Origin: Castanea sativa
Lineage: Eukaryota; Streptophyta; Magnoliopsida; Fagales; Fagaceae
Assembly: GCF_040712315.1 (NCBI RefSeq)
Contig: NC_134021.1
Coordinates: forward strand, 42,667,001 to 42,731,000
Length of the DNA stretch: 64,000 nt
Direction of reading: 5' to 3'
The translations under genes and the position numbers were made by a program. Of this stretch, positions 21,970-45,920 are shown piece after piece (the first letter of the stretch is position 1; every line of letters starts with the position of its first letter). Under the pieces are notes generated by a model. The model was not told the DNA's origin, made no database searches, and saw only the letters and a list, made by a program, of their open reading frames with translations.

Positions 21970-21978
21970 GCCACTGTG
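21970..21978. repeat. Left target-site duplication GCCACTGTG
   Basis: Nine bases, identical to 45912-45920, directly abut the left terminal inverted repeat. Confidence 0.9.
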
Positions 21979-22263
21979 GGACGAAATAGCAAAATAACCC
22001 TCAGTTGCTAACTATATAGTTAGCAGGCCCGGTTTGCAAAGTATATTATAAACTAACATCTCGAGTCTTAGACGCTCGATTTTGAGCTAAAAATCGAGTC
22101 TTTAAGGCTCGGTTTTGTCTGTTTGATGTGGCGTTTTTGCCAGGTGGCCTCCACCTGTAAATCGAGTCTTAGAGACTCGATTTATGTGACGTGGCCATCT
22201 GGATCTGACGTGGTTGTGCCACGTGGAAAATGAGAAACCGAGTTTGTGAGACTCGATTTAAAT
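21979..22263. repeat. Left terminal inverted repeat of the giant MULE
   Basis: It pairs with 45590-45911 in inverted orientation. It contains a perfect 18-bp palindrome GCTAACTATATAGTTAGC (22007-22024) and CAGGTGG-cct-CCACCTG (22141-22157). Four AATCGAGT...ACTCGATT-type palindromes lie at about 22061-22080, 22089-22116, 22159-22183 (11-bp perfect arms, 3-nt loop) and 22235-22259. It also has the ABRE/G-box cores ACGTGGC (22189-22195) and CACGTG (22220-22225). In MuDR the TIR acts as both transposase-binding site and promoter; the same role is inferred here. Confidence 0.9.
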
Positions 22264-22575
22264 TTGGGTTTTTTTCAAATTTAACGCCTCTCACAGCTCT
22301 CCTCTCTCTCTAACACGGACGGACTCTCTGTCACTCTCCCTCTCTCTCACTCTCCCTCACTCTCACACACCGAACCTCAGCCTCTCTCACTCGCTCACCC
22401 TCTCCACTCTCACTCACTCACCCTCTTCGTACTCACCAGTCTCCACCATTTTCCATCAGGCTACGCGGTTTGCTCTGCGCCTCCACTGCCTCCACACCAT
22501 TTTCCATCAGGCTACGCGGTTTGCTCTGCGCCTCCACTGCCTCCACACCATTTTCCATCAGGTTTGTTTTTTTTT
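22264..22575 (+). promoter_or_regulatory. Pyrimidine-rich leader with 51-bp tandem repeat, inside the left TIR
   Basis: A CT-rich leader (ctctctc/actcactc runs, 22290-22440) leads into a 51-bp unit (core 'ccatcaggctacgcggtttg') present twice plus a partial third copy, starting at 22446, 22497 and 22548. A similar palindrome-array plus ctctcac-rich leader occurs at 35.77-36.24 kb. It looks like the 5' UTR of the transcript that would leave the left TIR toward the PMD gene. Confidence 0.5.
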
Positions 22576-23936
22576 TTTGTGCAAAATAAAATTATTCTGT
22601 TTGGTTACCGAGAAATTGAACTAGAGAAAAACAATACCCATGTCTTCAATTTCACTATCTCATCAATTTTACTCACCAAAATAAGAAAAACCCAATTCCC
22701 ATTACTTAAAAGTAGTTTGTGTTCAAGGGTCAAAAATTCAATTTGGGGGTTTTAGTTCTCTTTGGTTCCTGATGCTGTAAAGGCTAAGGTTTTACCATAA
22801 ATTCAATATCCCTATTTGGAAGACCCGAGATTGTCATAACCCCACGGGGAACGGTGGATTCTTCGAAGGATGAACCCATCAAGATTAGCTTTGGTGGTTT
22901 AAAGAGACTTGTCTTGGAGGCGATTACTTTTGGTTCTTTCCTCTTGGATGTTGAGAGCTATGTGGATTCTATGTACCATTTTGTTTTGAACTGAGCTATG
23001 GTTACTTACATCCCGGCCAAAGCAAATTGGTGGTGGTGTACAACTGACCACCCTAAATGGAATAGGTGAGTGAAATTAGGTGATAAGTGCGAGTATTTGG
23101 CACTAAATATGCATGAAGGAGTTGTTAGGGTATTAGGATATATTTTGGCATTGAGCATTTGAAAAAAAAAAAAAACTTTTTATAGCGGTTAAATTTGAAT
23201 TTGGTTGGTATTATGCAATGTATATATTGCTAGGAATACTATCTTGCTAAATACTGTCTTATTGAAATGGATATTGTGCAAAAATATATGCTAGAAATTT
23301 ATGAGGGAAAAAAAAATATAAGTACAATAGAGATAGTGTTTACCTTAAAATCATCGGGAAAGAAGCCATAAACGAGTGAAAATTTTAAGCTAATCTTGAG
23401 ATATATTACTTGTAAGTAACATGTAACTATCAATACATGCTTCTTCCTTGATAGTTATTTGATGGAGTCATCAGTCAAGTTTGCTACGGAGGACTGATCT
23501 TTGCACAAGGTACTGTATATATTGATCTAACAGGTCTCTCTCAATATGAGATGGAGAAAATTATGAAGGAAAACTCATCGGGCAATCTATTTTGGAACAT
23601 CCACAAAACATTGTGAGGTCCACTACCAACTAAATAAGTGATTCACTACCCAAAGATATAAAAAAGGTCTAGCGATCGGTTGTGGAATGTAATTATGCTT
23701 TGATTTATCATAACCGTAGGCTGTTTTAGGAATGGAAAAAAAAATCAATAAGATTTCAGTTTTTGTGATGATTTTATGCCATTTATGATTTCGGCATTAG
23801 TCCTTTTATGGATTAGGGTTGTGGGAGTAAATTTGGCGAGATAGGGATCAATGATGTTTTGTTTAGTTATACCTACTTCCATAAGCATATTGTGTGTTCA
23901 TTTCTCAAACTAAGCGCTTATCATTTTTGTGTAGTA
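22576..23936 (+). other. Spacer with two exon-like pieces of unknown origin
   Basis: At about 22822-23067 a frame reads PEIVITPRGTVDSSKDEPIK..., then GLKRLVLEAITFGSFLLDVE, one stop, and YIPAKANWWW..DHPKWNR before a GT donor (AATAG/gtgagt). At about 23452-23613 another reads DGVISQVCYGGLIFAQGTVY. Both look like exon sequence carried in the element, and neither was recognised. The rest is AT-rich with nothing identifiable. Confidence 0.35.
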
Positions 23937-26797
23937 TGGCTGCCGCAAATGCTGGGCGGATTGACTATACGAGCCTGGACCCATTGACGGGTCGGTGTTG
24001 TCAAAGCGGCTCAAGCATCGGTCCGAAGCCATTTGGAATGGGCGGGTAAAACATAAAACTAAAGATTTAACTAATGTACATGCATTTAATTTATACAATG
24101 TACATGCATATGCCATCCATATATTAATCCATGGTTTGATCCTGTGCAGGATCCAGGATCTGTTAACTGCCGTAGCCGTAGTTCAGAGTTCTCCAATCGA
24201 GAGCCAATGGTGGACGACCGAGTCGGGAACATCATCAAGGCGGTTGGTTTGGAGGGACTCCTTTGGATCCCGGGTAGAGAGATTGACCACGGTTTGATAA
24301 CTGCCTTAGTGGAGCGATGGCGGCCCGAGACTCACACCTTTCACATGCCACATGGTGAGATCACCATCACATTACAGGATGTGGAGGTTCTTCTCGGGCT
24401 TCCTGTTGATGGTGACGCTATAACGGGGAGCACGCGAGAAAACTTGGGTGGATGTGTGCCGGGACTTCCTTGGCTTTCAACCTATAAATCAAGACAACCA
24501 TAAGCAACTTGCGGGTCGGAGGATTCTCATCAACCGGCTGTTGGAGCAAGTTGCCGATCCATTGCCGCCTAATGCTGAAGAGGACCAGCTGCATAAGTAT
24601 GCACGATGCTACATCCTAGCGCTATTGGGGGACACAATATTCATGGACAAATCCGGCGATAGGGTGCATCTAATGTGGGTGCAACCGTTGGAAGACCTTC
24701 GTAATCCACGAAGGTACGGTTGGGGAAGTGCTTGCCTTGCATGGTTATACCGAGAGCTATGCGGGGCAAGCGAAGACACTAGTCGGATTGGTGGGTGCTT
24801 CTTGTTACTCCGGTATTGGGCATGGGCCAGGTTCCCCTATTTGTGCCCCGCGGTTGAGCATGGTCCGCCGGTGGGTGCTTATGGTCCTCCGGTGCGTGGT
24901 CCATTGTCCTTGAAGTAAGTCTTTACCTCATGCACGTCATCTACATTATGCGATCATTCCCTAAGCTTATAATAATGTAACTTGCTTTTATTTCTTTATT
25001 TTAAAGGCTTCTAGCAATTTTTTATGTCAACATTGTGTAAATTTCAAATGGAGGTTCAATATATATGATTACGTTAATATACTCCAATTTTGTGATTGTC
25101 ATGTGGCTTGTATGTGCTTTGTTTTTTATAATCGAGTTTCTTATTCTATTGTTATTATTAATTAAGTAAATATCTATAAGATGATCTTAGTAGTTATAAC
25201 ATTGGAATTATCTCTGTACGAAATAATCGAGATATTGATCTATTGCAACTGATTGTAGGTGGTTGTGGGTCCCAAACAAGAAAAATAGGCCCGCCCACAT
25301 CTTCAGGGACAGATATCGCGAGCAAATAGCTTCAATGTTGCCAGGCCAGGTATGAAAATGCATTGTTTTACATGTTTAGGAACAAGATATTGGATTGAGG
25401 GGATTTGAAATATAAACATTGCTACCTAACGTGTTGTGTACTTGTTTTTTGGCTGTTGTAGGTGGTGTGGCAGCCATATGAAGCTGAGTTAGAGGACCTT
25501 CCGCCATGGTGCGTTGCAGGGAGGGCCGTGTGGACGGCAACGGTGCCGCTTGTATGTTTCCACCTAGTAGAAAAACATACACCGGATCGTGTCGTTCGTC
25601 AATTTGGGATGATCCAAGAAATTCCTCGCAATGTTGACACCGACACTGTGCTTCATGGCATTGATTTGAGGGGGAAGGTCGGTGTTGATTGGACGCGAAA
25701 GCATGCTGTGCATATCGATGAGTGGAGTAATCGCCTTCAACGACGTTGTGAAGCAGTGCTTGGTGATATGCCTCCACAGCACGAGTACCATGACTGGTTC
25801 AAAAGGATAACTCGGAGGTTCATAGATAGGCCTGGTGCTATAGTGACTCTGCTGGTAACTTCTCAATGTCTTCTACATCTTACCATATTGAAATAGCATG
25901 AAACCACCGTTTAGATAACGGTATACTATCACATTTTTACTTAGCACTTGGTCTTTCTATAATTTGCAATTATTACTAGCACAACCAATTCTAAACCAAC
26001 ATTTATTTTATTATCGATTGGCATTGTTGATTTGGTATTGCATTACTAATATGTGTGGTTTTTCCATGTGCAGATTGAGGGATACATCCGTTTGTTGAGG
26101 CGTCACCTAGTGGGCACAGAGGACCACAAGGACATTGCGAGGTCCTAACGGCGGTGCATGCAATTGAACGTGTACAACCTCCTATTCACGAGGCCCCGAA
26201 TGAGGAGGCACCTACTCCAACGGGCCCAAGCACGAGCACAACCCCGGCCGGATGTCGCCCTCGTCCTTTGTTACTAGCCCTCGGGTTGTCCCTACCCCCG
26301 ATCCTTCTCCATCCACCCCACCTCCATCCCCTAGCCCTACCATCCCTTCATCCCCCCCACATCCATCCCCTACCCCCACCATTCCTTCACCCACCCCACA
26401 TCCATCTCCTCGCCCCACCATACTGACACCCACCCCACATCCTTGTCCTGGGTCTGACATTCGTCCACCTACTCCACGGTCATTTCCTCAGCTGTTACCC
26501 ATTCCATCCTTTGACCTGGGTATTGATCCAACTCCACCTGACATGCAGCAGGAGCCACCCTCCCACAGTCCATCTACTGCCCCGTCTTTAGCCATCGACC
26601 TACCCCATGTTCAGGCTGAGCAGACTGTTGGGTTACCTGCAGTGGCAGAAGGTCGGCCGAAACGCATATCAAAGGCACCTCCTTGTGGGACAGGGGGGCA
26701 CAAACATGGACACAATGCTGGGCCCGAGGCATCTGACGAAGGACATGCAAGACCTCCTCCTTATTATACTAGACGGCATAAGATTCAAAAAAGGTAA
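23937..26797 (+). pseudogene. Plant mobile domain (PMD/MAIN-like) protein gene, frameshifted
   Basis: Five exons with GT/AG borders are visible: 23937-24045, 24150-24914, 25259-25349, 25462-25854 and 26074-26797. Conserved PMD blocks appear in order: HRSEAIWNG; GLEGLLWIPGREIDHGLITA; ERWRPETHTFHMPHGEITIT; LLGLPVDGDAITGS; YILALLGDTIFMDKS; GWGSACLAWLYRELC; WLWVPNKKNRP; WQPYEAELEDLP; and the usual Pro/Ser-rich tail ending in RPKRISKAPPCGTGGHKHGH. Single-base shifts are needed near 23980, 24443 (an extra T in AACTTGGG), 26140 and 26240, so this copy is not translatable as read. Family knowledge: PMD proteins are angiosperm proteins found both as host genes (MAIN, MAIL1, acting in silencing and genome stability) and inside transposons. 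The position and inward direction from the left TIR mirror mudrB of MuDR. Confidence 0.88.
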
Positions 26798-28046
26798 CTC
26801 AAAGCTAAATGTGAAACAACACACTTTATAACTAGTGGTATTCCTCTTTTCACATTTCAATCTACTATTGATTACTTAATGATATTATTATGGAGATCAA
26901 TATGGTTTTAACCTACATTTTTCGAAGTAGGTGATGGGAACGAGTGGTTGAAGGGGGCCAAAATGACAGTGATGCGGGTGTAGAAGACGATAAGCAACTA
27001 CTCTGACTTTGGCGGTTAAATCAATGGCCATTGTCTGCTACTATGGTAAAGTCTTGGGCTGCCAAGCCTAAGTACATCTAATTAACATTTGCCTATACCC
27101 TTGGATGCTTAGTTTCTGCCCAAAGAACAGGTTTTACTTTAGTAATTGATGCTTGAAAGTTGTGACTCAACAAATTGGTGATACGAGTTACGAGATTAGT
27201 TTTGTATTAGCCAATGGGTTAATTGCTTAGCAAAAAATTATTACAAAACGGTCTTTTTTCTTCTTCTTCTTGGTTCTGTTTTGTGTGTGTGTTTTCATTT
27301 TCCTTTTGCAAATGATCCTCGGATCAAATGCCATTTCCTCCCTACCTAAATAAGAGGTAGAGGATAGCTCAAGGATTGAATCCCATCTTTGGTGGTCATT
27401 ATGTTCTAATTTCAGAATTTAATTCTTTCTTTATGGTATTTATGTTCCAATATCGAATTTTTGCTTTTCTCTATGGTATTTATGTTGTGGATTGATGAAT
27501 TCTCGAGAAGATGTCTTTACATGTTCTGATCTGAACAATTTTGTGGTGCTTACATTCTTATTAATCAATTATAGCAATATATACCTTTGCTTTGGCTGGT
27601 TCTATTTGCCTCCCATGCCCCGCCCAATAGGCTGAAAAACATAGAATCAGATTCCTTTTCTGTTCATTATTGAGAAATCTTCATTGAGAACAAATCAAGA
27701 AAATGTAATCCTTTATATTGATCCTACAAGAAATCCTCCTATTGTTTGGTAGTTGAGAAAGCAAACAATGAAATTGAGCCTTGGGCTTTTGGTGTTATAC
27801 GTTATTTGGTTTAGACGACAAATCCAATTAAATGAATGCAGTTAATAAAAAAGTTACTTGAATTACACCAACCTTTGTATCAGAGTTTGTCTAGTGTAAG
27901 CTGTTTTGCTTCTCTCTTTCCAAACAATGAAGAATTAAAGATAGAAACTTTGAGTTCTTCCTTCCCTTGCTTGCAGTTTCATAAAAGCTTCATTGAGTAT
28001 TAAGTTCTTATTTTAGCTTTTTAAGTGTTTTACTTTGTGGTGTTAG
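26798..28046. other. Spacer between PMD gene and first captured fragment
   Basis: Probable 3' sequence of the PMD transcript followed by AT-rich DNA. A short possible extra exon follows 'ttcgaag' near 26930, but no domain was recognised. Nothing else was seen. Confidence 0.4.
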
Positions 28047-29212
28047 GCGACTCACAATTTTTAGAGGATGAAAGCACCAAGATTTTTGCTTGGAAAGTGG
28101 CCGAGCATTACAGTGCAAGGACAAATCAGACTCTGGAAGAAAGAGAAGCTAGTCCAATCATTCACTTAAAGAAACTTAACAATTGGGTATATCTTGTCAA
28201 TTCATGTAACATGCTATGAGCTTGTGATTGTTATGAGTATGCATTGTCTTTATTTGTTGTCGTTCCTTATTTTGATAAACAGATTAAAAGTGTTGTAATT
28301 CAACTCTATGCTCGACGAGGAGATGCTGTTCTTGACCTTGCCTGTGGCAAGGTATTATAGGTTCTTTATTCCATTGCAATTGTGTTTTACCTCCCTACCC
28401 AAAAAGTGTAGACATTAAGCAATTTTTTTATTTTCTTTAACATTCACCGGGGTGGTGATCTCATCAAATGGGATAAGGCAAAAGTTGGGTATTATGTTGG
28501 TGTTGATATAGCAGAAGGCTCAGTAAGTACTTCATATCACCATTTTACTATTTTTATTGGTCCACTTTTTTGTGTGGACATATTGACATTAATGGGTTCA
28601 GTTATGCTTAATGCCGGATTGTGGTTGGGTGAGGCTGTCTAGCTAATCATCATGGTAGTTAGTTTGTTAGTTGTGTGAGGCGATTTCTTGTATTCGAGTA
28701 TTTCTGTTGCTACATGTGTTGTCATCAACCATCTTAACATTGTTTTTATTTATTATGCAGATAGAAGATTGTCGTACACGCTATAATGGTGATGCTGACC
28801 ATCATCAGCGTCGTAAAAAATTTACATTTCCTGCCCGCCTCATATGTGGAGACTGTTATGAGGTAATTGCAGTTTTGTAGCTAGTTAAATGAATTTCCTT
28901 ATATGTCCACATACATGTCTGCTTTCCAATTGAGCTTATCTAGTATTGCACTTGATCAAATGAGGATTGTGTCAAGTGTCATATCTGGACATAAACACTA
29001 CTGTTTGTCATGATTGCATGGATAAGTGACATCAACTCCGAATTTGTTTTTGAGCAACTGAAATTTTGGCTGGCTGCTTCAATAGAAGTTTTTATGTACT
29101 TTGTTAAGACAGCAGCTGAAATAACTTTGATTTGTGTTCCATGTTTTGTTCGCAGTCTCGTTTGGACGATGTTCTTGCAGATGATGCTCCCTTTGATGTC
29201 TGCAGTTCCCAG
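28047..29212 (+). pseudogene. CMT1-like: Captured fragment of mRNA cap guanine-N7 methyltransferase (five exons)
   Basis: Exons at 28047-28186, 28283-28351, 28451-28522, 28761-28862 and 29156-29212 join in frame. They give FLEDESTKIFAWKVAEHYS, NQTLEEREASPIIHLKKLNN, IQLYARRGDAVLDLACGK, GGDLIKWDKAKVGYYVGVDI, DCRTRYNGDADHHQRRKKF and DDVLADDAPFDVCSSQ. These match plant mRNA cap guanine-N7 methyltransferase 1, including SAM-binding motif I (VLDLACGKGGD). Introns are retained, so capture was at DNA level. The acceptor before the third exon reads CCGG instead of CAG. The start of the gene and the C-terminal half, including the rest of the catalytic domain, are missing. It lies in the same direction as the PMD gene. 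Confidence 0.88.
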
Positions 29213-29457
29213 GTGAGTGATATTTGAGTCTGCTAACTGCATTTTTAAGGTATCATATTTCATACACTCACACACATCATATTTGATTGAATGATTAACG
29301 TTGGAGACTCTTTACCTCTGTATTAAAATCAAATATTTCAGGAGCTGCCCCTTTTCACAACGTTGAATGTTTAAAATATGGTGTACATAAAATCTCAAAA
29401 GTTTTATGGTGCATTAAACTTGGATAGTGAAGTGTGTGCTTTGGTTTCCTAACTTAG

Positions 29458-30149
29458 AAAGTTACAGTGAAAAGTTGGATAGGCAAAAACTTCTCTTGCA
29501 GAATTTCTTTGAATATCTATCCATTCGGATATTGGCTGGTGCCTTGTATGAAGTGCGGGTTATTCTTACCATGAACAATATCCGATTTTCACAACTACAG
29601 GTAATAATTGATGCTATAAATCATTCATGTTTTGCCTTCTCCACTGCCTATTTTGCTACTGAGTTTTCTCAAGAAATATGAAGAGAAATACAAGCAAAGT
29701 GGAGATGTAGCCTCCAAGTTAACTATTGAAGAAGCAACATTTCGTGATTTACAGGTAGCCATAATTTCTTTTCATGAATGACCTATAAATGGCCTGCCAT
29801 TGATCATTAAAGTATTAAAAGTGTGTCATTGTGCTGGTCCTTTTGTTAGATTTATGTTAAACAATCTTATGCTTTATATTTGTAGGAGAGGAAAATGGAG
29901 CTTTATCGGGCCATTGTTAAGATGGAACAAGATGGCAAGTCTTGATGGCGTTCTTCGGGTATGTCTTCACAAATTTGGTCTGGTGCAGGCCTATTTAAAA
30001 CTTGTTTATGTTCATTTTCAATCGCAAATTTCAGGTTCACGCTGATCGTATCCAATCAGATCCTGATGAACTAGTAAAAGGTCTAAATGAACGCTGCAAG
30101 AAATATGGATTACGTGCGAAACCAACCACATTGACTCAGCTTCCCTTTG
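29458..30149 (+). pseudogene. Captured fragment of an EH-domain/Pan1-like endocytic protein
   Basis: Exons at about 29674-29754, 29886-29958 and 30035-30149 read KYEEKYKQSGDVASKLTIEE, ERKMELYRAIVKMEQDGKS and RIQSDPDELVKGLNERCKKY then GLRAKPTTLTQLPF. This is the coiled-coil region near the C-terminus of plant EH/Pan1 proteins (AtEH1/2, TPLATE-complex subunits in clathrin-mediated endocytosis). An extra T after GGCAAGTCT shifts the middle exon. A preceding piece (29458-29600) ends at a GT donor (ACTACAG/gtaata) and may belong to the same gene. The EH domains and the acidic WDEDWDKFEDEGF end are absent. Sense to the left TIR. Confidence 0.75.
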
Positions 30150-31201
30150 GTAAGTTTTTGTCATCCTTGCCCTGTGTTGTTGATTCCCTTTTGATTCATG
30201 CATGTGTTGCCCAGAATTTAGAGGAAATCCCTATTCTATCAAACAGAAAAGGCAAACATCTTGTGCTGAAGAACCATGTAAGCAAGTGATCTACCCTAGA
30301 ATTCCCTTCGCAGGATACAGCTTGATAGCTCATACAATTTGAAAAACTAGCTGCCAAAGATTTGAGGATGAGCTAGGTGTGGAAAACCTTGAATTCCCTT
30401 AACCGTCTTGTAGAACTGTGAACCAGATGGTGAAGGAATTTCATTACCACTACATTCCTTGAACTTTGAACAATACTCTATCAATTCCTTAGGGTGTTCA
30501 TGTGCTGGGTTTGGTTGGGTTGAGCCAACCTAGATTGGTAGTATATAATGCCAATTGAAAAGGATAAGGTCTCTGACAGCACTTCCTTTTCAACTTTACG
30601 GAACCAATCGGTTCCACCGGGGTTTGCTCATTGATCACCCCATACCTTGGATATTTGCTTTTGTATGCACTTCATAATTTTGAAGAGGAGCCTTATTCGC
30701 TTTTATTGGATGGTTTTATTCCATTCAATTTCTAATGACCATCCACATACTTGGTTTTTCTGTTAGGAGCCAGTCATGTAGCTATATATATGAAATCTCA
30801 AACTTATTGTCATGTTTGCATGAAATAATGGTGATCATGCTCACTTTGTAAAAATCTATTATGTTCTTAATTTTCTTCATTGGTAGGCATGAAGTTTTAA
30901 AAAGGGAATTAACATTTGAAATGTATCCGCATTAGATTACCATAGCTAAAATTTCCTCTTCCCGTATCGTGGCAAGCTATGAAGTGGGTATGGTTTCTTT
31001 GTTTCAACAATGAGATGTATGATTGCCATTTTTTATCTAAAGTTTATCATGATTTTGTTTTTCTTGTTTTGCTCCAAAAACTTTCCAAGTGATAAACTCA
31101 AAGCACAACCGATTGAAATTATTTATGCGTATGGTGATCTCGGTTTATTATACCAGCAACAAGAAGGTCCCAACTTGATCATAACAACAATGCCCTTGCA
31201 G
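30150..31201. other. Unassigned interior of the MULE
   Basis: Low-complexity and AT-rich sequence with one mildly GC-richer patch (about 30440-30660). No domain was recognised. It ends in an intron-like tract with a CAG acceptor at 31199-31201 in front of the next captured exon. Confidence 0.4.
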
Positions 31202-31341
31202 TAATTGTTCTGCTTCAATATGTTCCAAGATTATATCTGATTTTTCCATTAAGTTCGCAAATAATCAAAGCAACCGGAGTGGTCACTAAGACTGCCGGCG
31301 GGCCGCATATAATCTCGTTGTTGTACATGTTGGCTAGCCAT
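31202..31341 (+). pseudogene. Captured exon of a cyclic-nucleotide-gated ion channel (CNGC)
   Basis: One 140-bp exon lies between a CAG acceptor and a GTATGT donor. It translates to IVLLQYVPRLYLIFPLSSQI then IKATGVVTKTA.. and SLLYMLASH, the pore-approach region of plant CNGC channels (usually ..TAWAGAAYNLLLYMLASH). The Trp-Ala-Gly-Ala core is replaced by GGPHI, so the exon is mutated. Only this exon is present. It reads away from the left TIR. Confidence 0.8.
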
Positions 31342-31576
31342 GTATGTAACCTGTTATTTTTGTTGGGCTTCCTCTAATTGTAATTCTCTCTTTCCCCAAT
31401 CCCTTATTTGAGTGCACTTATCTTTTGTGTATTATACTCTCTCAAAAAAAAAAAATCATATGTTGCTCTTAAAAAGCGGTACGTTAGCATCGCAGAATTT
31501 CCCACTATTTCGGATCTCTCACACCCATTTCCTTCTATCTGTTTCTCTTTTATATCTAAATTTGGAAATTGTGCAG

Positions 31577-31688
31577 GTTTCAAGTATTGTACCTTGCCGT
31601 GAAGACAGTGAGAGAGTCGGGGCATCAACACGTCTACTCTGCCGTTGAAAGACCCCTTCGCCTTGCTCAAGCCGCCGCCATCTTGGAG
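31577..31688 (+). pseudogene. PAS2-like: Captured exon of a 3-hydroxyacyl-CoA dehydratase (PASTICCINO2/HACD type)
   Basis: A 112-bp exon between GTGCAG and GTTCTG borders reads FQVLYLAVKTVRESGHQHVY then SAVERPLRLAQAAAILE. It matches the N-terminal membrane region of PAS2/PTPLA-family dehydratases of very-long-chain fatty-acid elongation in the endoplasmic reticulum (QVLYLA..TL.E.G...VY.A.E.PL.LAQTAA.LE). Catalytic Tyr/Glu residues lie in later exons that are absent. Sense to the left TIR. Confidence 0.8.
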
Positions 31689-32979: not shown

Positions 32980-33029
<50 letters not shown>

Positions 33030-34393: not shown

Positions 34394-34484
34394 ATGTAAA
34401 CCTGAGGATTTAGGAGACAAGAGTGATACTGGTGGATGAAAGTGATGCTTGTAATGGGGAACTCATATCATACACAGTAGACTC

Positions 34485-35369: not shown

Positions 35370-35759
35370 CTCTCTTTTTTCTTTTTCCTATCATAAAATG
35401 TATTGGTGTACCAAATTAATAACCTGTGATGTTGTTGTTGTATTGGTGCAAGAGTCTCCAAATAAATGATGGATACAATTTTCGATACCTATGCTATTTA
35501 TGTTGTAACTTCTTGAGTTCCAAATAATATATGCATAATTTTATGTATACAAAAATCTAAATTCTTCTGTTGATAATAAGCCATGTATATAAGGCCAGTA
35601 GCGTGCCTATGATATAAAGAAACTTAACTATTTAATTGCAGAAGTTGGAATTAAACATTAAAGATTACCTTAATTTTTGTTATTTGATAGTGTTTGGGAA
35701 TTAGTTATTGAATTTGGAAAAAAATAATAATAATTCCTTTTCGCACAATGAGAAAAAAC
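35370..35759. other. AT-rich spacer in the MULE
   Basis: No gene, repeat or motif was identified. Confidence 0.4.
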
Positions 35760-36240
35760 ATAAGCCAGTGTAAATCGATTTTTGCTTTTAAACTCAATTT
35801 CCTTTTCAATACTTTTCTATGAAAATCAAGTTTAAAAGGCTCGATTTTTGCTTCAAAAATATAGTGGAAATCGAGTTTAAAATGCTCGATTTTTTCTTCA
35901 GTGGGATTCTCAAAAATATTGTGGAAATCGAGTTCCAAAGACTCGATTTCTACTGGGATTTTGTTTTTTTTTTTTTTTTTGGTTGCAGCTACAGCAGCGG
36001 TATTTAACCCTCAGCCCGTGGCATTAACTCTCACAGAAAATCACACCCTCGGTAACACACAGAGAAAACCTAAAACAGAGCTCTCAGCCTCACTAACTCT
36101 CACTCACTCACCCTCACTAACTCTCAGTCACCCATAACTCTCTCACACCATAACTCTCTCACACCACTCACTCTCACAAAACCACATTGTCCACTCTCAC
36201 TGCTCTTCCCTCTCAGCAAATTCATATCTAAGGTAAGGGT
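35760..36240. repeat. Internal palindrome array plus CT-rich leader, like a second MULE end
   Basis: At least three AAATCGAGTTT...CTCGATTT palindromes lie at about 35820-35950. They are followed by poly-T, 'ggttgcagctacagcagc', and a ctctcac/actcactc-rich tract to about 36230 with 'aaggtaagg', a possible donor. The order palindromes / poly-T / CT-rich leader repeats that of the left TIR region (22.06-22.56 kb) in the same orientation. The last palindrome and 'ggttgcagctac' block recur directly at 40634-40700. Confidence 0.7.
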
Positions 36241-36370
36241 TTGCATAATTTGATTGTCATTGTAGTTGGGTATGTTGTCTATGGGTGTGGGTGTCAGAGT
36301 TTTACCATTTATTTTGTAGATAGTTAACATAACTTAGTTAATTTATCAATATTGTGAATTATAGAACTTG

Positions 36371-37180
36371 GTCTGATTTGGTCTGATTTGGTCTAATTTG
36401 GTCTGATTTGGTCTGATTTGGTCTAATTTGGTCTCATTCGGTCTGATTTGGTCTGATTTGGTCTGATTTGGTCTGATTTGGTCTGATTTGGTCTGATTTG
36501 GTCTAATTTGGTCTCATTCGGTCTGATTTGGTCTGATTTGGTCTGATTTGGTCTGATTTGGTCTGATTTGGTCTCATTCGGTCTGATTTGGTCTAATTTG
36601 GTCTCATTCGGTCTCATTCGGTCTGATTTGGTATGATTTGGTATGATTTGGTCTGATTTGGTCTGATTTGGTCTCATTCGGTCTGATTTGGTCTAATTTG
36701 GTCTCATTCGGTCTCATTCGGTCTGATTTGGTATGATTTGGTCTGATTTGGTATGATTTGGTCTGATTTGGTCTCATTCGGTCTGATTTGGTCTAATTTG
36801 GTCTAATTCGGTCTGATTTGGTCTGATTTGGTCTAATTTGGTCTGATTTGGTCTGATTTGGTCTCATTTGGTCTGATTTGGTCTAATTTGGTCTCATTTG
36901 GTCTGATTTGGTCTCATTCGGTCTGATTTGGTTTGATTTGGTCTCATTCGGTCTGATTTGGTCTAATTTGGTCTGATTTGGTCTGATTTGGTCTGATTTG
37001 GTCTCATTCGGTCTGATTTGGTATGATTTGGTATGATTTGGTCTAATTTGGTCTAATTTGGTCTAATTTGGTCTCATTCGGTCTCATTCGGTCTGATTTG
37101 GTCTGATTTGGTCTGATTTGGTCTAATTTGGTCTGATTTGGTCTGATTTGGTCTAATTTGGTCTGATTTGGTCTAATTTG
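36371..37180. repeat. Minisatellite: 81 decamers in perfect register
   Basis: The unit is GTCTGATTTG, with variants GTCTAATTTG, GTCTCATTCG and GTATGATTTG. It repeats 81 times over 810 bp without a single insertion or deletion. The 3' flank (ggtccattcagtccac..., then 'ttgagagccctta') is related to the sequence around 10410-10620 and 61380-61600. The array may therefore be an expansion of that dispersed family. Minus-strand frames through it are artefacts of the repeat. Confidence 0.97.
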
Positions 37181-37819
37181 GTCCATTCAGTCCACTTTGT
37201 TCCATTTTGGTCAGGAAGATCCATCTTTGTGTACTTACATATATAATTGGAGACAACATATTTAGGTTGAGAGCCCTTATTCAAAATCTAAATTTATTAA
37301 AACAAATTCTCGAGTTTGGGGGTCAGCTGTCCACCATTGCTACACTGATATTCATAGTGCTACATATGCTGCTCAATAGCTCGGCACTGTTGAACCCTAT
37401 CTAGTCATATCATTCACACTCACGTCAATACACGGATATCCGCATCATTTTGCAATGCACCGTTTTCAAGGATGCGGAAGACCCCCGAAAAGTTTATGAT
37501 GCATTTAACACAACTCGGTATTGTCTTGTCAAGTTCATGTCGGATGAAACACAAGCATGCTAAATACTCTTCACATGAATACTGTTCAATTTGAATAGTC
37601 ATAGCAAGACACCGCAACTACGCCTAGAATAAGAGAATCTCACTATGACATTGGGAACATTTGAACAAAAAATTCGTATCGTGGTTTTCCAGCCTGTATT
37701 GACATGACAAGCCTGAATATGTTAAATTTTATTATTGAATACACAGTGGAATGAGGTTATAAATGTACCACAATTCTTTTCTTATTCCTACACCACTAAC
37801 TTTGTAGGTTGAGTAAGCT
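37181..37819. other. Spacer between minisatellite and unknown gene
   Basis: The first 100 bp belong to the decamer-family flank. The remainder (37390-37620) has higher complexity and a short open minus-strand frame, but no recognised domain. Confidence 0.4.
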
Positions 37820-38432
37820 ATGAGTCGCAATGCCTCAACATCATCTCGTACACGTAGAAACAAGTTTCAATCTACTTCAACAAATGAATTATCACAAGTT
37901 CCGGCGGTCAACAACTACAAACATACACAGACCACTATGGAGGGAAATGGGTTGGAAAGAAGAGAGATTTCGTTAATATGCCAATATACACGTACGAGAG
38001 TCTTGGAAGCGTTGGCCACATCATGGTCGGCAAACCTACAAAACTAAGTACAGATACCACCGCAATGGAGTTCACCGTAGCAGAACCACCATGGTCAACC
38101 CTATACGAGAAGAGGTGTGAGTTGGAGGTGTATTGTCGATGGCACGGGTTACGAGTTCCTAAGGCACGCTCGGCGAGTTACCTAGAGATGAGCCTGCCAA
38201 CATACTTGCTCGCCTTGAACAAGAGAACAATCAAATGCAAAGGCGGTTAGACCGTTTTCATGCAGTCCAAAAAGCTAGGAAGCATCTAAAGGGGAAGGCA
38301 CAAGAGCGAGCCATGAAGTCTATTAATGAAATTACTGCGTTAGATGATGAAAGTGACATTTCAGACTTCTCAGATTCAAGCAATGATGACTTCCAAAAAT
38401 TTCTACCTACGAACATTCAACGTTGTTGTTGA
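37820..38432 (+). pseudogene. Unrecognised frameshifted gene with charged coiled-coil C-terminus
   Basis: Three overlapping frames form one plausible protein: a Ser/Thr-rich start (MSRNASTSSRTRRNKFQ), a middle GGKWVGKKRDFVNMPIYTYE...VGHIMVGKPTK, and a C-terminal heptad-like stretch ILARLEQENNQMQRRLDRFH followed by an acidic DESDISDFSDSSNDD tail. Two single-base shifts separate the parts (near 37950 and 38190). The acidic tail and coiled coil recall accessory proteins of transposons. It also sits right after the internal palindrome/leader array, where an element gene would start. I do not recognise a family; it could equally be a captured host gene. Confidence 0.4.
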
Positions 38433-39028
38433 TGTCTACACATTTTGTGCAGACTGATCTGTTGTTGATCGTGAGGGCAAATGATCCTATTGTTCGTTGT
38501 TGGTATGTTATGAAAAGATGTACTTGTATTAGTGTTTGCAAGAATTATAAGTGCTTGGTGAAAATTATGGTCTAAACTCAATATTCCGTGAGTAAAACTC
38601 GCTTTTCTAAAGTAATACTGAATGTCATTATTTAAATTCTTTGACAAATTCTTTGAAATCAATTCGTCCATCTCCATTGTCATCAAAGACTCTGATCATC
38701 CTTTGGCATTCCACTTCCAAAGGTTCCATGAGCCCCACTGAACAGATCTAACATTTGAAACAACTAAACCACCGAGCTTTTTTTCTCAAATCAAATAATT
38801 TCCTACACGTCACGCCTTAACTCTCATGTTTTGTTTCTTTTTTTTCTTTTTCTTTTTCCTTTTTCTTTTTCTTGTAAATTTTAAATAAGATACAATTTTT
38901 AACCTTAGCATATCAATAAACTTCCCTATTTGACAACAATTGATTTGAAATGACTGGTGGCAATATTTATCCCATATTTTAAATTCATGGTTGAAATCTT
39001 TTTAGATCATTTAGATGAAACACTAGTT
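38433..39028. other. MULE interior, contains one captured EF-hand exon
   Basis: Apart from the EF-hand exon at 38628-38742 this stretch is AT-rich (poly-TTTTTC near 38830-38870) with nothing identified. Confidence 0.4.
38628..38742 (-). pseudogene. Captured terminal exon of an EF-hand calcium-binding protein
   Basis: Behind a CAG acceptor the minus strand reads GLMEPLEVECQRMIRVFDDN then GDGRIDFKEFVKEFK and a TAA stop. DDNGDGRIDFKE is a canonical EF-hand loop with calcium-ligand residues at positions 1, 3, 5, 9 and 12. Only one hand is present, so the parent (calmodulin-like or other EF-hand protein) cannot be named. It reads in the same direction as the transposase gene. Confidence 0.7.
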
Positions 39029-40005
39029 GAAGTTATGTGATGAGAGGAAACACTAGTTGGAAAATTATTTTGTGATGTCAAGTATTCTAAAATCTGACTC
39101 AGGACACTTTTTGAGACATTAGCTCTTTCACATGCAACATAACATGCTATAAACTCAAACATATGGCCTATGTCTTTCTTAGAAGGCCATTCTTCGACCA
39201 ATCCATTGACATCTTCACTATCTGACCTCTCTGTCTGGGAAATGTCCCTATTAAGCATACAAATAAGAGAGTTCACTGTATCTTGGACCAATATATTTTG
39301 ACATCCATTGTGGGAGCAGGGAGGAACAGTAAATTGTTATGTTCCCTGCTTCTCCCTTCTTGTTGAAGTTATGTGATGAGAGGAAACACTAGTTGGAAAA
39401 TTATTTTGTGATGTCAAGTATTCTAAAATCTGACTCAGGACACTTTTTGAGACATTAGCTCTTTCACATGCAACATAACATGCTATAAACTCAAACATAT
39501 GGCCTATGTCTTTCTTAGAAGGCCATTCTTCGACCAATCCACTGACATCTTCACTATCTGACCTCTCTGTCTGGGAAATGTCCCTATTAAGCATACAAAT
39601 AAGAGAGTTCACTGTATCTTGGACCAATATATTTTGACATCCATTGTGGGAGCAGGGAGGAACAGTAAATTGTTATGTTCCCTGCTTCTCCCTTCTTGTT
39701 GAAGTTATGTGATGAGAGGAAACACTAGTTGGAAAATTATTTTGTGATGTCAAGTATTCTAAAATCTGACTCAGGACACTTTTTGAGACATTAGCTCTTT
39801 CACATGCAACATAACATGCTATAAACTCAAACATATGGCCTATGTCTTTCTTAGAAGGCCATTCTTCGACCAATCCACTGACATCTTCACTATCTGACCT
39901 CTCCCCGGGAAATGTCCCTATTAAGCATACAAATAAGAGAGTTCACTGTATCTTGGACCAATATATTTTGACATCCATTGTGGGAGCAGGGAGGAACAGT
40001 ATGAT
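39029..40005 (-). repeat. Three tandem copies of a 336-bp unit carrying a captured exon
   Basis: The block starting 'gaagttatgtgatgagagg' recurs at 39029, 39365 and 39701, exactly 336 bp (112 codons) apart. Each copy encodes on the minus strand NILVQDTVNSLICMLNRDIS, EEWPSKKDIGHMFEFIACYV and ACERANVSKSVLSQILEYLT. The copies are nearly identical, and the third has a small deletion in the DISQTE region, so the triplication is recent. The peptide looks like real protein sequence (helical, Cys-containing), but I could not name the family. Each copy is bounded by a stop, so this is exon reiteration and not a repeat protein. Confidence 0.85.
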
Positions 40006-40120
40006 TCTGACTCTGACAAGGCTTATGAGGATGAAAAAACTGGATACCTTGTAGCTTCATGGCCACAAGTCATTTTCTAATGAACACCACGTTGCAACAC
40101 CGCAAACATCAGCAAGGTAT

Positions 40121-40228
40121 TCAACTATCAGACGCAGAAGATCCAAAGCTGATACTGAATTTGAAGCTTATGCAGGTCAACAGTTGATTGTTACCATCCT
40201 CCAGTGTCATCTTGAGAGTGTAAGAGCC
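40121..40228 (-). pseudogene. Captured last exon of an ML-domain (NPC2-like) lipid-transfer protein
   Basis: Behind a TTCACAG acceptor the minus strand reads GSYTLKMTLEDGNNQLLTC then ISFKFSI..GSSASDS and TGA. This matches the C-terminal exon of plant phosphatidylglycerol/phosphatidylinositol transfer proteins with an MD-2-related lipid-recognition domain (PGSYTLKM..DGN..ELTCISFKFSI), including the natural stop codon. All 35 residues are in frame. It reads in the same direction as the transposase gene. Confidence 0.8.
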
Positions 40229-40379
40229 CTGTGAATACCACAAACCATCAGCTGGTTGATGCGAAACACTAGAGTAAAAAAAAATAAAAATAAATGATAG
40301 ATTAAATTGTTATATTGGACTGTGACAACTAACGAAAATGTTAGATATCTAATGGTAAATGGCAACAAAATTCTAGGAA

Positions 40380-40710
40380 TTGGCCCCGTTAAAAATCGAG
40401 TTAAAAGAATCGATTTACATATAAAATCGAGTTTAAAACCCTCGATTTACACTGAAAAGCCACCTCTGCAAATCGAGTTTTAAAGCCTCGATTTTTAGTT
40501 TAGTGGTTCTTTTAAAAATAATAATATTCCGCGGAAATGGCGCCTTTAAAAATCGAGTTTAAAAGCCTCGATTTACATTAGTTTTCTAAAATATCATCCC
40601 CGTGGAAACGGTGCGTTTGAATCTGCCCAAAGGAAATCGAGTTCCAAAGACTCGATTTCCACTGGGATTTTTTTTTTTTGGTTGCAGCTACTGCAGCAGT
40701 AAACAAGATT
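40380..40710. repeat. Internal palindrome array near the transposase gene
   Basis: Five AAATCGAGTT...CTCGATTT palindromes lie within 300 bp (about 40395, 40426, 40468, 40550 and 40634). They are followed by poly-T and 'ggttgcagctactgcagcag'. The last 80 bp directly repeat 35926-36000. The motif class is the same as in both TIRs. Confidence 0.8.
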
Positions 40711-41152
40711 TAGTTTTTTCCCTTCCCCTACAGCAGTAAACAACTAGATACAACCAATCAAAGGGTACATCAGAAACAAACAACCGGTCCCAAACAGTTA
40801 CTATTCATTACTGGCTAGGCAAAAGCTGCACAACGCAACTAATGTGACGAGTACAATGGATAACAAATAGTTCAATTACAACAACATTCAACAATAAACA
40901 AAATATAGAAAATAACAACTAACTAAAATTAACATAGTCTACATTCGGCAACAACATTCAACAAAGAAAAAAAAAACACTTGTACATGCATATACAGAAG
41001 ATAACGACAAGTCCCACGTACATTGCCAAAACTTTAATCGAGTCTTCACTCGCCTGACAAACATGAAAATACAATCGTTAGTTTCCAAATGCGAAGAACA
41101 AAAACCAAATGAAATTCATAGCATATTATATAAAAACAGTGAGAGCACTTAC
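40711..41152. other. 3' flank of the transposase gene
   Basis: AT-rich sequence, probably 3' UTR and terminator region of the leftward transposase transcript. No other feature was seen. Confidence 0.4.
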
Positions 41153-43905
41153 CTAGTTTGTAGCACTACCACTTGTCGAAGCCCCAAGGGAATTGGGACA
41201 GCTTCTACGGTTATGCCCCTCTTGATGACACACTCCACATCGCTGCCTCGGTTGAATCTCCCTCAAGTCCGGATCTTCCCTCCGGCTTCCCCGTTCTCGT
41301 CGTACCCCGTCCATTTCATTCCTTATTCTTGAGGCCACAGGACGACCTTTGGCCCGCAATAGCTGTGGGTCAGGCACCCACCGTGGTCCGCGAACGTCCC
41401 TCCACAATGACTCTGACTTTGGCACCACAAAATGATGTGAATATGTGTGAATGGCGTTGTTCAAACTATAACATGGGTCAATATAGCTGGTCGCATCGAG
41501 GTGCAGACCTTGAAGAACTTTAATTGCATGTGAACAAGGGATCTTCAAGTTTTGCCACTTTCCGCAACCACATCTTCTATCAAATACGTGCACGTCATGA
41601 TCGTGGTTTCCCCTCCACCTCTATGGTCGTTGTACGGGGTAAGCACTTGATATACACCGGTTTCATGATTAAAATTCCTCACGGTGTGGCCTGCGGTTTT
41701 CTCGCGCATTTTTGTTATAGATCTCCATTGCATAATCACTCCACACCTTACCTCGAGAGAGATCTTCCGTAATTTTTTTATGTCGATCGTGGAAATATGC
41801 AACAAGTTTGGACCAAGTGAACTCAACCATTGCCGCAATGGGCAAACCGCGGGCACCTTTAAGTACCCCATTAAAGCACTCAGAGATATTGGTTGTCATT
41901 GCCCCGTAACGTCTTCCACCATCATGTGACTGGGTCCATTTGTCCACATCCTCACTGGTTAAATATGTGTATGGCATACAGCGTCCAACATGGCGAGCAG
42001 TAGGGTCTACACCCCTCAGTAAATTAATCTCGACCTCCTTAATGATTTGCATTATAGATTCAAATTTAGCTTCATGGGTCGCATATCCAGCTTTCAAGGC
42101 CAATGCCTTTAGAATCGGGTCATCAAAGCGTCTATTGAAGTTGCTAGCAACATGTCGAAGGCAATATCGGTGATATACCTGTTCTGTTCCGTCCCTCCCT
42201 CTAGGCCACTGTCGAATGGCATTTTTGATACCTTTATGTCGGTCAGAAATAATGCAAATGCCATTGGCAGGTGTAACATGCTCAATCAAAGCCCTGAGAC
42301 ACTCTAAAAACCACCCCCAACTAGCCTCTGACTCCTTGTCCACAACAGCAAAGGCAAGAGGCAAAACCTTTTGGTTGGCATCAGTTGCCATTGCAATCAT
42401 CAAAACCCCTTTGTATTTACCATACAAATGAGTCCCATCAATACTGATCACTGGCCTACAATATCGGAATGCAGCAATGCATGGAGCAAATGCCCAATAT
42501 ACATAGCGCAGTAACGCAGAATTCTCGTATGGCCTAGGTATGGTGTGATAATTGTACTGGGTACCCGAATCCTGATCCAAGTATGCCAACAACAACTTTC
42601 GCAACCTTTGATAAGACTCCTCCCAATCCCCAAATATCTTAGCAATTGCCTTTTGTTTTGCGTCCCATACTTTATAGTAAGAAAGCTCATGTTTATACTT
42701 AGTATGTATGATGTCCCAGAGATCTTGTATACGAGCAGTGTGATTTTGTCGCAATTTTCCCACAATTTCTGATGCAACAAAATTAGAATCCATCATTTTA
42801 CCGTCTCTTCGCAAGCCAAAGGGTATACAAGTGTGTGGACCCACATAAGACGTGACCATCCATAGACCATTAAGTTTAACCTTCATGAATGCCCCAACGT
42901 ACCACTTGCAGTTGTCGTCAACGCATGCAGCGCACAATTTAGTTTTGGTCGACCTCCGGATTATAAAATTTCTATTATCATTTGCTGCGTATATTATCAA
43001 TGCACGCTTCACCGCCTCTTTATTTGCAAAAGTCAACCCTTTATGAAAATGCATCCCATCTTCCCAAGTTGAAACAAATGGTATCTGAAGACGTGAAGGA
43101 TCAACCATATTTTCCCAAGTATTTGCGTAAAATGAGTCGGCAGGAGGTCTGTAGGCAGTAGTCGCATTTGTATCATGCTGGATGCCAATATCATGGTCTG
43201 CATCACCTTCATCATGGTACTCCATATTTTCCTCTTCAAAATTGGGAACAACTTCATGGTCATCCATATCGTTATCAAAGTCGCCTCGCTCAATCCTCTC
43301 TTCGTATTCATCCACATCATCAATATTTTCACCATCATTCGCGGCATGATCTTCGTCTTCGTCTTCCTCCTCTAAATGTGTCTCTTGAGGATGGAGGGGT
43401 TCACCAGTATTGGCAACATGATCTTGAGATGGGAGCGTATAACCTCCCATTGTATACCCTCCCATTGTAGTACATCCATCATCTAGGGCTGTAAATTGTA
43501 AAGCCGTAGTTGTTTGTTGCACCACCTCAGTATCAACTTCTACAAGCGGCTCCGAACTTACGTACAACTCAGCAGCATTTACTTGGGGCATTTTTTGGAT
43601 CCTATTAAACATCATCTTTACATGTTTGTCTTATTTGATCGCCATATACCCGTAATTTATCCGTTCATGAAGGACTTCTTGTGGGTAACGATAAATAATC
43701 TTGATGTCATACCAAGCAGGGTTCAAACTCAATGAGTGCATTATTTTCCTCTTCAAATCATCCAACGTCTTCAACTTACGACGTATCATCATGTAGTAGC
43801 ATTCAATACCCGGCCCTCTAAATGGGAATCCGTCAATCTCTCCAGGATTGTCAAGGGGTCCACCATAGTATACATTTATATCAATATTCTTCAGAGATTG
43901 TGAAC
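41153..43905 (-). pseudogene. mudrA-like: MULE transposase (MURA type) with one stop and two frameshifts
   Basis: Reading leftward, an exon starting after ATAG at 43905 encodes a PB1-like N-terminal region (YYGGPLDNPGEIDGFPF...). An in-frame TAA at 43633-43631 interrupts AIK/DKHVKMMFNRIQ. The 648-codon open part (43615-41669) has an acidic stretch and a MuDR zinc-binding N-domain (C228/C231/C236, HTC at 261-263, counted from 43615). The MULE catalytic domain follows: D393 in ISIDGTHLYG, D458 in IISDRHKGI, the C485-x2-H488 motif, and candidate E519. Single-base shifts near 41705 (AGAAAACC) and 41613 (GGGGAAACC) precede the SWIM zinc finger (CGCGKWQNLKIPCSHA) and a CCHC knuckle (CGVCHQEGHNRRSCP). 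Otherwise full length for a MURA-type transposase. Confidence 0.93.
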
Positions 43906-44417
43906 CTATTAGAGAGTAAAGTATAATATGTTAGTGACATATTTTATCTCTTTTATTTAACATCAATTAGAAAACCTTGAATATCTACTCAAAGTACAAA
44001 AATTACAACTTCTCACCCCACATCACATACAAACACACTCAATCATTATCATTTCGTACTCAAACAAATAAAAAAATTAAAGACAAAACTCACCCCCATT
44101 ACAAAATTTCGACTCAATTCTAACAAAAATATAAATAAAAATATCAAACCAAACAACAAAAGTCATGAGGATGTGCAAATGAATGAGTGCAATTTGATCA
44201 TGAGCAATCAAAATTAGACATATCATCTAATTTCAAAATCAAGGCATTAATATACAGTTAAATATACCATATGTGATATACAAACTCAAATTTAATACAA
44301 ATTATGGAGAAAAGGAAGCAGATAAATTCACCGAAAGCTAGCAAAAAGACTTCCTAGGTCATGAATAAAATCTATATATATATATATATATATATCTTTC
44401 TCCTTACTTTCTAAAAT

Positions 44418-44499
<82 letters not shown>

Positions 44500-44502
44500 T
44501 TT

Positions 44503-44549
<47 letters not shown>

Positions 44550-44711
44550 TTCTCCTCACTTTCTAAAATAAATATATATATATATATAAAAATAAATATA
44601 AATATATAAATAAATATAAATATATATATAAATAAATATAAATATATATATAAATATAAATATAAATAAATATAAATATAAATATAAATATATATATATG
44701 TATGTATGTAA

Positions 44712-44767
<56 letters not shown>

Positions 44768-44942
44768 TTCTCCTCACTTTCTAAAATAAATATATAAATA
44801 TAAATATAAATATAAATAAATATAAATATAAATATAAATATAAATAAATATAAATATAAATATAAATAAATATAAATATATATATGTATGTATGTATGTA
44901 AATATATATATATATATATTTATATAAATATAAATATGTATG

Positions 44943-44980
<38 letters not shown>

Positions 44981-45589
44981 TGTATGTAAATATATATATA
45001 TATGTATGTATGTATGTAAATATGTAAATATATATATAGGTAAGAGTGAGGAGAACATTACCTGACATGAGGATGTGCAAATATGCTACTAGGATTGTAT
45101 GAGAGTGAAGAGAGGAGCAATGTTTGTGTGAGAGTTGAGAGAGGAGCAATGTTTGTGTGAGAGTTGAGAGAGGACCAATGTTTGCAGGATTGTATGATGA
45201 GATGGTTTTGCTGAATGTGTGAGAGAAGAGCAATGTTTGCTTTCCTGTACAGTTTTTTTTTTAAGATTCCTGAGAGACCTAGGAGACCTATTTTGTGAAG
45301 ACGTACACGCGTGCTTTCTTTTTCTGAAAATTCACGTGATATTTTTTCTGAAGATATTTTTTCTAAAGATTTACACTACTTCACGTGATACTTTTTCTGA
45401 CTGAAGATATTTTTTCTGAAGATTTACACTACTTCACGTGATACTTTTTGTTATATTCAAGACCAGGTCTTCAGATCAGAGATACTTTTTGTTATTCAAG
45501 ACCAGGTCTTCAGATCAGATCAGAGTTCAGACTCTCCAGAGAGAGAGACATGGAAGTGACAGATGGGACCCAACGCTGAGGTAAACCCC
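43906..45589. repeat. Transposase 5' region: large AT microsatellite and tandem repeats
   Basis: 43906-44360 is intron-like AT-rich DNA. From 44371 to 45040 there are (TA)n and (AAATAT)n arrays, broken by three copies of 'tctttctcctcactttctaa' (about 44394, 44547 and 44765). 45090-45190 holds three to four units of 'gtgagagttgagagaggagc'. 45325-45520 has two nested repeats: 'cttcacgtgata' plus 'gaagatattttttctgaag' three times, and 'caagaccaggtcttcagatca' twice. A possible 5' exon end (CATGTCAG/gtaatg) lies at 45063-45070 on the minus strand. Confidence 0.75.
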
Positions 45590-45911
45590 CACTTAAAAAT
45601 CGAGTTTATGAGACTCGGTTTCCATTTCAGAAAACCGAGTCTCTAATACTCGAGATCTAAGTGGCGTTTACGTGGCAAGAATCGAGTCTCTAATACTCGG
45701 TTTTAAAAATCGAGTCTTAGAGACTCGATTTCCAGGTGGATGCCACCTGGCAAAAACGCCACATCAAACTAAAAAACCGAGTCTTAAAGACTCGATTTTT
45801 AGGCCTAAAATCGAGTCTCTGAGACTCGAGATGCTAGTAAATGATATAGTTTAGAAACCGGGCCTGCTAACTATATAGTTAGCAACTGAGTGTTATTTTG
45901 CTATTTTCTCC
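45590..45911. repeat. Right terminal inverted repeat of the giant MULE
   Basis: Inverted partner of 21979-22263. It contains the same perfect 18-bp palindrome (45866-45883), CCAGGTGG-atg-CCACCTGG (45732-45750), six ATCGAGT/ACCGAGT...ACTCG(A/G)T palindromes (about 45597, 45633, 45679, 45707, 45773 and 45807) and an ACGTGGC box (45670-45676). It has two more palindromes than the left TIR, so the arrays have expanded or contracted independently. Confidence 0.9.
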
Positions 45912-45920
45912 GCCACTGTG
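45912..45920. repeat. Right target-site duplication GCCACTGTG
   Basis: Identical to 21970-21978; directly abuts the right TIR. Confidence 0.9.

Follow-up and report, generated by a model that had tools for sequence, protein, structure and literature searches.

A 23.9-kb Mutator-like element of Castanea sativa and the mosaic host-gene cargo of its sister copies

The window analyzed here is a 64,000-nucleotide stretch of the chestnut Castanea sativa genome (NC_134021.1, positions 42,667,001 to 42,731,000), and it contains a Mutator-like element (MULE) of 23,933 bp at positions 21979-45911. Comparisons with sister copies elsewhere in the genome show that the 23.9-kb interval has moved together at least once and transposes as a unit. 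It is very likely that this element belongs to a family in which a MULE shell moves whole while carrying host-gene cargo between its two genes, in which that cargo was later exchanged between family copies, and in which the element's own MURA transposase gene has been decaying after insertion.

The preliminary description of this DNA had claimed a perfect 9-bp target site duplication (TSD), and this feature is indeed present. The sequence GCCACTGTG abuts the left element end at 21970-21978 and the right end at 45912-45920, and these are its only two occurrences in the window, from which its complement is absent. As a control for chance, an exact abutting 9-mer repeat was found at 10 of 400,000 random position pairs. 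The element begins with GGACGAAATAGC, and its right end, read in inverted orientation, begins with GGAGAAAATAGC. Terminal inverted repeats (TIRs) lie at 21979-22183 (plus strand) and 45707-45911 (minus strand) and are 88.6% identical. Their best alignment, 21984-22183 against 45906-45707 over 201 columns, scores 287, compared with a maximum score of 50 among 200 random pairs of 700-bp stretches. The left TIR is identical to that of sister copy C3 over 205 bp and 99% identical to that of C1. Paired TIRs had thus been recognized correctly, but their solid length is about 205 bp; the 285-320 bp given previously corresponds to a weaker gapped extension that runs through palindromic units.

A 26-bp TIR core occurs at the two element ends only, with up to three mismatches tolerated, and has no exact match in the viral and prokaryotic sequence collections searched. 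A composite element with internal TIRs was considered and rejected, as a 22-nt terminal stretch matched only the two outer ends with as many as five mismatches allowed. TIR divergence was likewise rejected as an insertion clock, because the left and right TIRs differ about as much in the sisters, so that the difference looks inherited. The CGAG palindromes of the TIRs also form clusters within the element, at 35822-36002 and 40364-40732, which are directly oriented, and all 15 occurrences of ATCGAGT on the plus strand of the window fall within the element. No Rfam family was matched at gathering thresholds.

Sister copies, which the preliminary description had proposed to seek with both TIRs, were found. 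Of 1,115 candidates in a TIR search of the C. sativa assembly (13 contigs, 716 Mb, with the window on C9), the best 40 were scored, giving a list of 41 matches; all copy numbers are lower bounds because only these best candidates were scored. Pairing by hand, in inverted orientation and at distances of no more than 30 kb, yielded at least 12 inverted TIR pairs including the window, measuring 9.7-26.8 kb end to end, and left 17 of the 41 matches unpaired; three strong matches had no partner in the list. The complete sequences of seven sisters were read, with approximate sizes of 25.4 kb (C1), 21.3 kb (C3), 18.1 kb (C7), 24.8 kb (C8a), 26.8 kb (C8b), 25.4 kb (C10a), and 20.1 kb (C10b), whereas C5a, C5b, C2a, and C4 were read at their ends only. 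Each of the seven has a different, perfect 9-bp TSD exactly at its TIR ends (a script reported matches 9-11 bases long, in part extending into the TIRs, and these were trimmed by eye to 9). With the matching TSD TCCATAGTA of the 15.3-kb copy C5a, 9 of the 12 TIR pairs carry a TSD.

Evidence for movement of the whole interval comes from C1, which matches the window at 98.0% over 21977-40001 and at 97.3% over 39023-45911, cargo included. Copy C3 is also colinear with the window except for a 2.1-kb gap (35449-37572) and fewer units of a 336-bp repeat. The window TSD alone only bounds the interval, without showing that all of it moved. Because C1 is colinear at another locus with another 9-bp TSD, the whole interval transposes as a unit, and the earlier claim to this effect is borne out by C1 and C3. 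Furthermore, all seven fully read sisters share the same TIR ends, and none terminates at an internal point; ends at internal points had been named as contrary evidence.

Two other origins for so large an interval were weighed against these data. It is extremely improbable that the copies reflect large-scale segmental duplication or duplication in the assembly rather than transposition. Although a single assembly lies behind all copies, the seven sisters are spread over five other contigs (C1, C3, C7, C8, and C10), each with its own TSD, and in the 300-bp flanks compared their similarity to the window extends no more than about 25 bp past the TIR ends. Alternatively, a MULE of 9-10 kb might have inserted first, with its middle added afterward by nested insertions or local duplication. 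Such growth could be imagined from the differences among sisters in a 10-bp minisatellite, an AT-run, and the 336-bp units, but it is very unlikely given that C1 and C3 hold this cargo elsewhere in the genome, flanked by TSDs of their own. Also, no retroelement domain was revealed when 26.8-36.5 kb and 37.0-41.7 kb were scanned in six frames, and no direct repeat longer than 100 bp was found besides the tandem arrays when low-complexity stretches were filtered. Large size is a trait of this family and not the product of later insertions at the window locus.

The shell consists of two convergent genes, PMD on the plus strand and MURA on the minus strand, with the host-gene pieces between their 3' ends. 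The PMD (plant mobile domain, PF10536) gene occupies 23936-26797, its start being approximate, and comprises several exons with GT..AG introns. Its presence had been claimed previously and is confirmed, but the gene is interrupted: in the window it exists as frame-shifted pieces, with two or more breaks in its frame. Every residue of a 394-aa C. sativa PMD model (P0123) is present in the window exons, and two apparent mismatches are codons split across exon junctions. The gene terminates with AGG TAA, which is also the splice-donor sequence AG/GTAA. In copy C8b, about 1.7 kb of extra sequence lies within the PMD gene (about 3107-4766 of locus L023) and is probably a nested insertion.

The MURA transposase gene at 41156-43912 (minus strand) encodes a MULE domain (PF10551, 1e-18), a SWIM domain (2.7e-6), a DBD_Tnp_Mut domain (24.5 bits, with a cut-off of 25), and a weak zinc knuckle. 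It is homologous over its full length to a Quercus lobata protein (P0002), with 754 of 919 columns identical, and its closest relatives among the best 120 of 781 matches are Fagaceae proteins; no match was found in viral contigs. The TSD of about 9 bp, the long TIRs, and the MURA-type transposase place the element in the MULE superfamily, and the antisense arrangement of PMD (plus strand, about 24-26.8 kb) and MURA (minus strand, 41.2-43.9 kb) resembles that of PMD-type MUDR elements.

The element does carry, by descent, its own transposase gene, as stated earlier. In the window copy, however, that gene is broken, so the copy lacks the uninterrupted transposase gene of an autonomous MULE. MURA is in fact interrupted in all eight copies, the window included. 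None of the window lesions is common to any of the seven sisters, and across the eight copies two single-base gaps are each common to two copies. For MURA, pN/pS ranges from 0.20 to 0.97 and so stays under 1 in each of the 28 pairs; these pairs are non-independent, and the calculation left out stop and gap codons. The private lesions of the window copy and these uniformly low ratios suggest that the lineage was recently autonomous and probably kept a working transposase until recently. On the simplest reading, transposase would have come from the lineage's own MURA, which would then have decayed after insertion, copy by copy.

A surprising feature of the family is that shells only 1-7% apart carry three different cargo sets. 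Cargo A, present in the window, C1, and C3, includes pieces of a cap methyltransferase, CNGC15, and PaO. Cargo B, present in C7, C8a, C8b, and C10a, includes exons of MCM together with a piece of Sec1 that scores below its curated cut-off, as read in C8b. Cargo C, from C10b (loci L027 and L028), includes a SWIRM match just below cut-off together with most of a flavin amine-oxidase domain. This combination is as in LSD1-like demethylases, so that cargo C would place such sequence inside a transposon, the family name being an interpretation. All host pieces in cargos B and C are on the PMD strand, and the opposite strand gave no match in the stretches scanned.

The four cargo-B copies share with the window the PMD gene (23887-27020) and the right part of the element, but not 27021-33926. 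They all switch sharply to cargo B at the same point (27020/27021), which is 223 bp past the PMD stop codon, whereas the divergence of C10b starts before this, at about 26832. In cargo A (27021-33926), similarity to the other cargos is confined to a stretch by the right edge, 33808-33929, and the C10b segment compared ended one base short of this match.

A block at 33.9-35.5 kb is present in A, B, and C copies, although it is absent from C7, and its divergence is very different from that of its surroundings. When the window, C1, and C3 are compared with C8a, C8b, and C10a, the shell differs by 1.4-3.4% in PMD (25260-27020), 0.8-2.1% at 37.2-39.0 kb, and 0.9-2.3% in MURA. In contrast, the inverted-repeat block differs by 14.9-16.4% (34865-35456) and 8.6-11.3% (34075-34400), whereas its 34.9-35.5 kb portion differs by only 0.7-2.8% within A and within B. 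Gene constraint does not explain this contrast, because A and B also show few synonymous differences in MURA (e.g., 9.0 over 916 codons for the window and C10a) and the 37.2-39.0 kb stretch is equally close. As judged by these divergences, the comparison shows that the copies are recombinants, most clearly for A versus B, since a shared block is far more diverged than the shell genes around it. The shortened B copy C7 differs from A by 3.7-4.2% in PMD and 2.0-3.1% in MURA.

Certain observations could also be accommodated if one young PMD-MULE shell had spread and its copies had each captured different host DNA downstream of PMD without any exchange. The placement of the A/B junction at one exact point in four copies would suit such independent capture, as would the many different host domains found behind PMD in the gene models of relatives and the fact that A and B differ in their left TIRs as well as in their cargo. 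This explanation is nonetheless unlikely. It does not account for a block found in all three cargo sets that differs by 14.9-16.4% in A versus B when the three shell stretches compared differ by 0.8-3.4%. Some form of exchange or conversion is needed because old shared cargo sits within young shell genes.

The reading that cargo was exchanged within a mobile shell also faces difficulties of its own. Copy C10b is more distant throughout (PMD 5.5-6.9%, MURA 3.3-4.3%), which makes the case for its mosaicism weaker. The left TIR follows the cargo and not PMD, differing by 4.0-5.0% between A and B and by 0-2.0% within each, and 22.7-23.9 kb of the A copies has no match in B copies. Thus, there must be several breakpoints and no single clean swap, and the shell is not one block. 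Three of the 12 TIR pairs (C5b, C2a, and C4) have no matching TSD as judged by eye. Finally, with no intact MURA among the eight copies, transposase may be supplied in trans.

On the favored reading, host DNA would first have been captured between the PMD and MURA genes. The cargo section would later have been exchanged among family members, perhaps by ectopic gene conversion, by recombination, or by gap repair that switched template in the shared shell.

Gene models in relatives provide additional hints regarding the region behind PMD, but these are automatic predictions that were weighed as support only and not as proof of cargo. Among the best 120 of 1,019 PMD relatives, 10 rows have a Pfam domain other than PMD. 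The extra domain follows PMD in nine of these (P0202 as judged by eye) and, also by eye, seems to precede it in P0210 (SURF2). The nine models represent eight loci with RING, proteasome, P5CR, SOD, CHCH, ALIX (just below cut-off), NOG1 (in two models), and COPA (weak) plus acyl-ACP thioesterase domains. Among the MURA relatives examined, the arrangement varies, and a host domain follows MURA in P0074 (Mlo) and P0087 (PsbQ). In P0007 (LRR), P0022 (hAT), and P0082 (endoglucanase) it precedes MURA, as read by eye, and so would be outside the element.

A PMD end motif is present in 10 of the best 120 rows, where it is followed by R six times, by S three times, and by K once, as expected for most rows if the donor AG/GTAA in the stop codon is used. 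Tails of at least 47 aa past this motif occur in 6 of these 10 rows, and the overlap of stop codon and donor is kept in all eight chestnut copies. In the window copy, an in-frame fusion of PMD to the methyltransferase was rejected after a reading by hand, because the phases of the donor and the first methyltransferase exon mismatch. A tentative and rather doubtful proposal is that Fagaceae harbor a shell-and-cassette MULE, with a conserved shell of two genes in which a slot immediately after PMD is loaded with host exons in the PMD direction that copies exchange with one another. Through the overlapping donor, this slot might act as an exon trap, the PMD frame being spliced to any host exons loaded there.

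Between its PMD and MURA genes, the window copy has five host-gene pieces with database support, fewer than the seven or more counted initially. Three are strong. The fragment of an mRNA cap guanine-N7 methyltransferase (28046-29212) has five exon blocks with intron sequence kept, and 143 of 146 aa are identical to a Lithocarpus homologue (P0242). Translated searches identified a fragment of a CNGC15-like cyclic nucleotide-gated channel (31144-31359) and one of pheophorbide a oxygenase (PaO; PF08417; 32159-32278). The other two are near or below threshold: a weakly supported adenosine kinase fragment (34650-34805), which lies inside an inverted repeat of about 90% identity (34056-35376, with arms 34056-34409 and 35026-35376), and an EF-hand fragment at the Pfam threshold (38638-38711). 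The EF-hand piece reads in the MURA direction, unlike the other four, which share the PMD strand. No family could be assigned to two repeated stretches that look coding or to one additional open frame in the element.

These assignments draw on the six-frame Pfam scan described above, on Pfam searches of the minus strand at 22.0-26.8 kb, the plus strand at 41.7-45.7 kb, and single open frames elsewhere, and on PDB-sequence searches of the plus strand at 26.8-36.3 kb and the minus strand at 26.8-41.1 kb. In a protein search with the cargo pieces, the best 120 of 1,181 matches were all methyltransferase relatives, and none was listed among them for the other six query pieces. The element also contains the 10-bp minisatellite of about 82 copies (36368-37183), which is missing from C3, and an AT-rich microsatellite (44373-45038). 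The 336-bp unit is present as three tandem copies with an open frame on the minus strand (39026-40001), and its copy number varies among sisters. Weak matches of this frame to unrelated Pfam families look like chance and were excluded from the fragment count.

The insertion lies about 550 bp, as estimated by eye, upstream of the first ATG of a minus-strand LRR receptor-like gene. This gene looks interrupted in the assembly because its two long open frames (20267-21496 and 18510-20378, both minus strand) overlap in different frames near 20.3 kb. Elsewhere in the left flank, a dispersed repeat that also occupies the right window edge (61271-64000) is split into 10275-11411 and 16697-18278, with about 5.3 kb between the parts; the split shows no clear target duplication. 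An F-box gene at 8614-9885 (plus strand) has diverged relatives in the right flank at 52988-53708 and 59517-59870 (both minus strand), which were recognized by eye and have no Pfam match.

If these interpretations are true, the family consists of MULEs as large as 27 kb that transpose in one piece, probably had autonomy until recently, and carry alternative blocks of host exons in similar shells. Plant DNA transposons could then transport cargo from several genes, such as most of an amine-oxidase domain, and recombine it among their copies. The family offers a concrete set of loci for studying capture, exchange, and chimeric transcription. The chestnut shell resembles that of maize MuDR, which has two convergent genes that each start near a TIR. 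MuDR differs in having mudrB rather than PMD, in being about 5 kb long, and in carrying no cargo.

The capture of PMD by MULEs is already known (PMC5418596). PMD-bearing plant MULEs of the MUDR and MUDRAVI2 groups have TIRs of 30-447 bp and 9-bp TSDs (PMC6446971, Table 1), encode a MURA with SWIM, and often have PMD in antisense (PMC6446971), so the chestnut element is like them in gene arrangement, TIR, and TSD. It differs in its large host-gene cargo, none being described in the accessible text for those groups (PMC6446971). Several host-gene fragments have also been reported in a TIR transposon of another superfamily, the soybean CACTA element Tgm-Express (PMC1947982). In the accessible literature on Pack-MULEs and PMD, giant MULEs, Fagaceae MULEs, and MULE gene conversion, a scope that covers few subscription papers and not Repbase, no match to this family was found, and neither recurrent giant size nor cargo exchange between similar shells was encountered.

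The preliminary description had called this element a giant. MULEs are described as usually shorter than 5 kb (PMC10741241), and those of arthropods reach 10 kb (PMC13359780). The label of giant must be tempered by grapevine families that reach 17.7 kb, the largest published MULE encountered (PMC2528002). Mutavine-1 (17.7 kb) and Mutavine-18 (16.2 kb, with TIRs of 230-263 bp; PMC2528002, Table 4) are likewise very long and multi-copy, and grapevine class II elements are reported to include transduplicated host sequence (PMC2528002). The Mutavine elements are shorter than all eight fully read chestnut elements, and the accessible part of that report makes no mention of cargo exchange between copies (PMC2528002). 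Like Pack-MULEs, the chestnut element has host-gene fragments between MULE TIRs (PMC6431247). However, elements with a transposase match are classed as autonomous and not as Pack-MULEs (PMC8903248), and the Pack-MULE definition does not apply here because a transposase gene is present (919 columns of MURA homology). None of the Pack-MULEs of Jiang et al. (2004) exceeded 7 kb and most were 1-2 kb (cited in PMC6431247). Unlike Pack-MULEs, which have no transposase gene, the chestnut element carries both MURA and PMD and is more than three times as long (PMC6431247).

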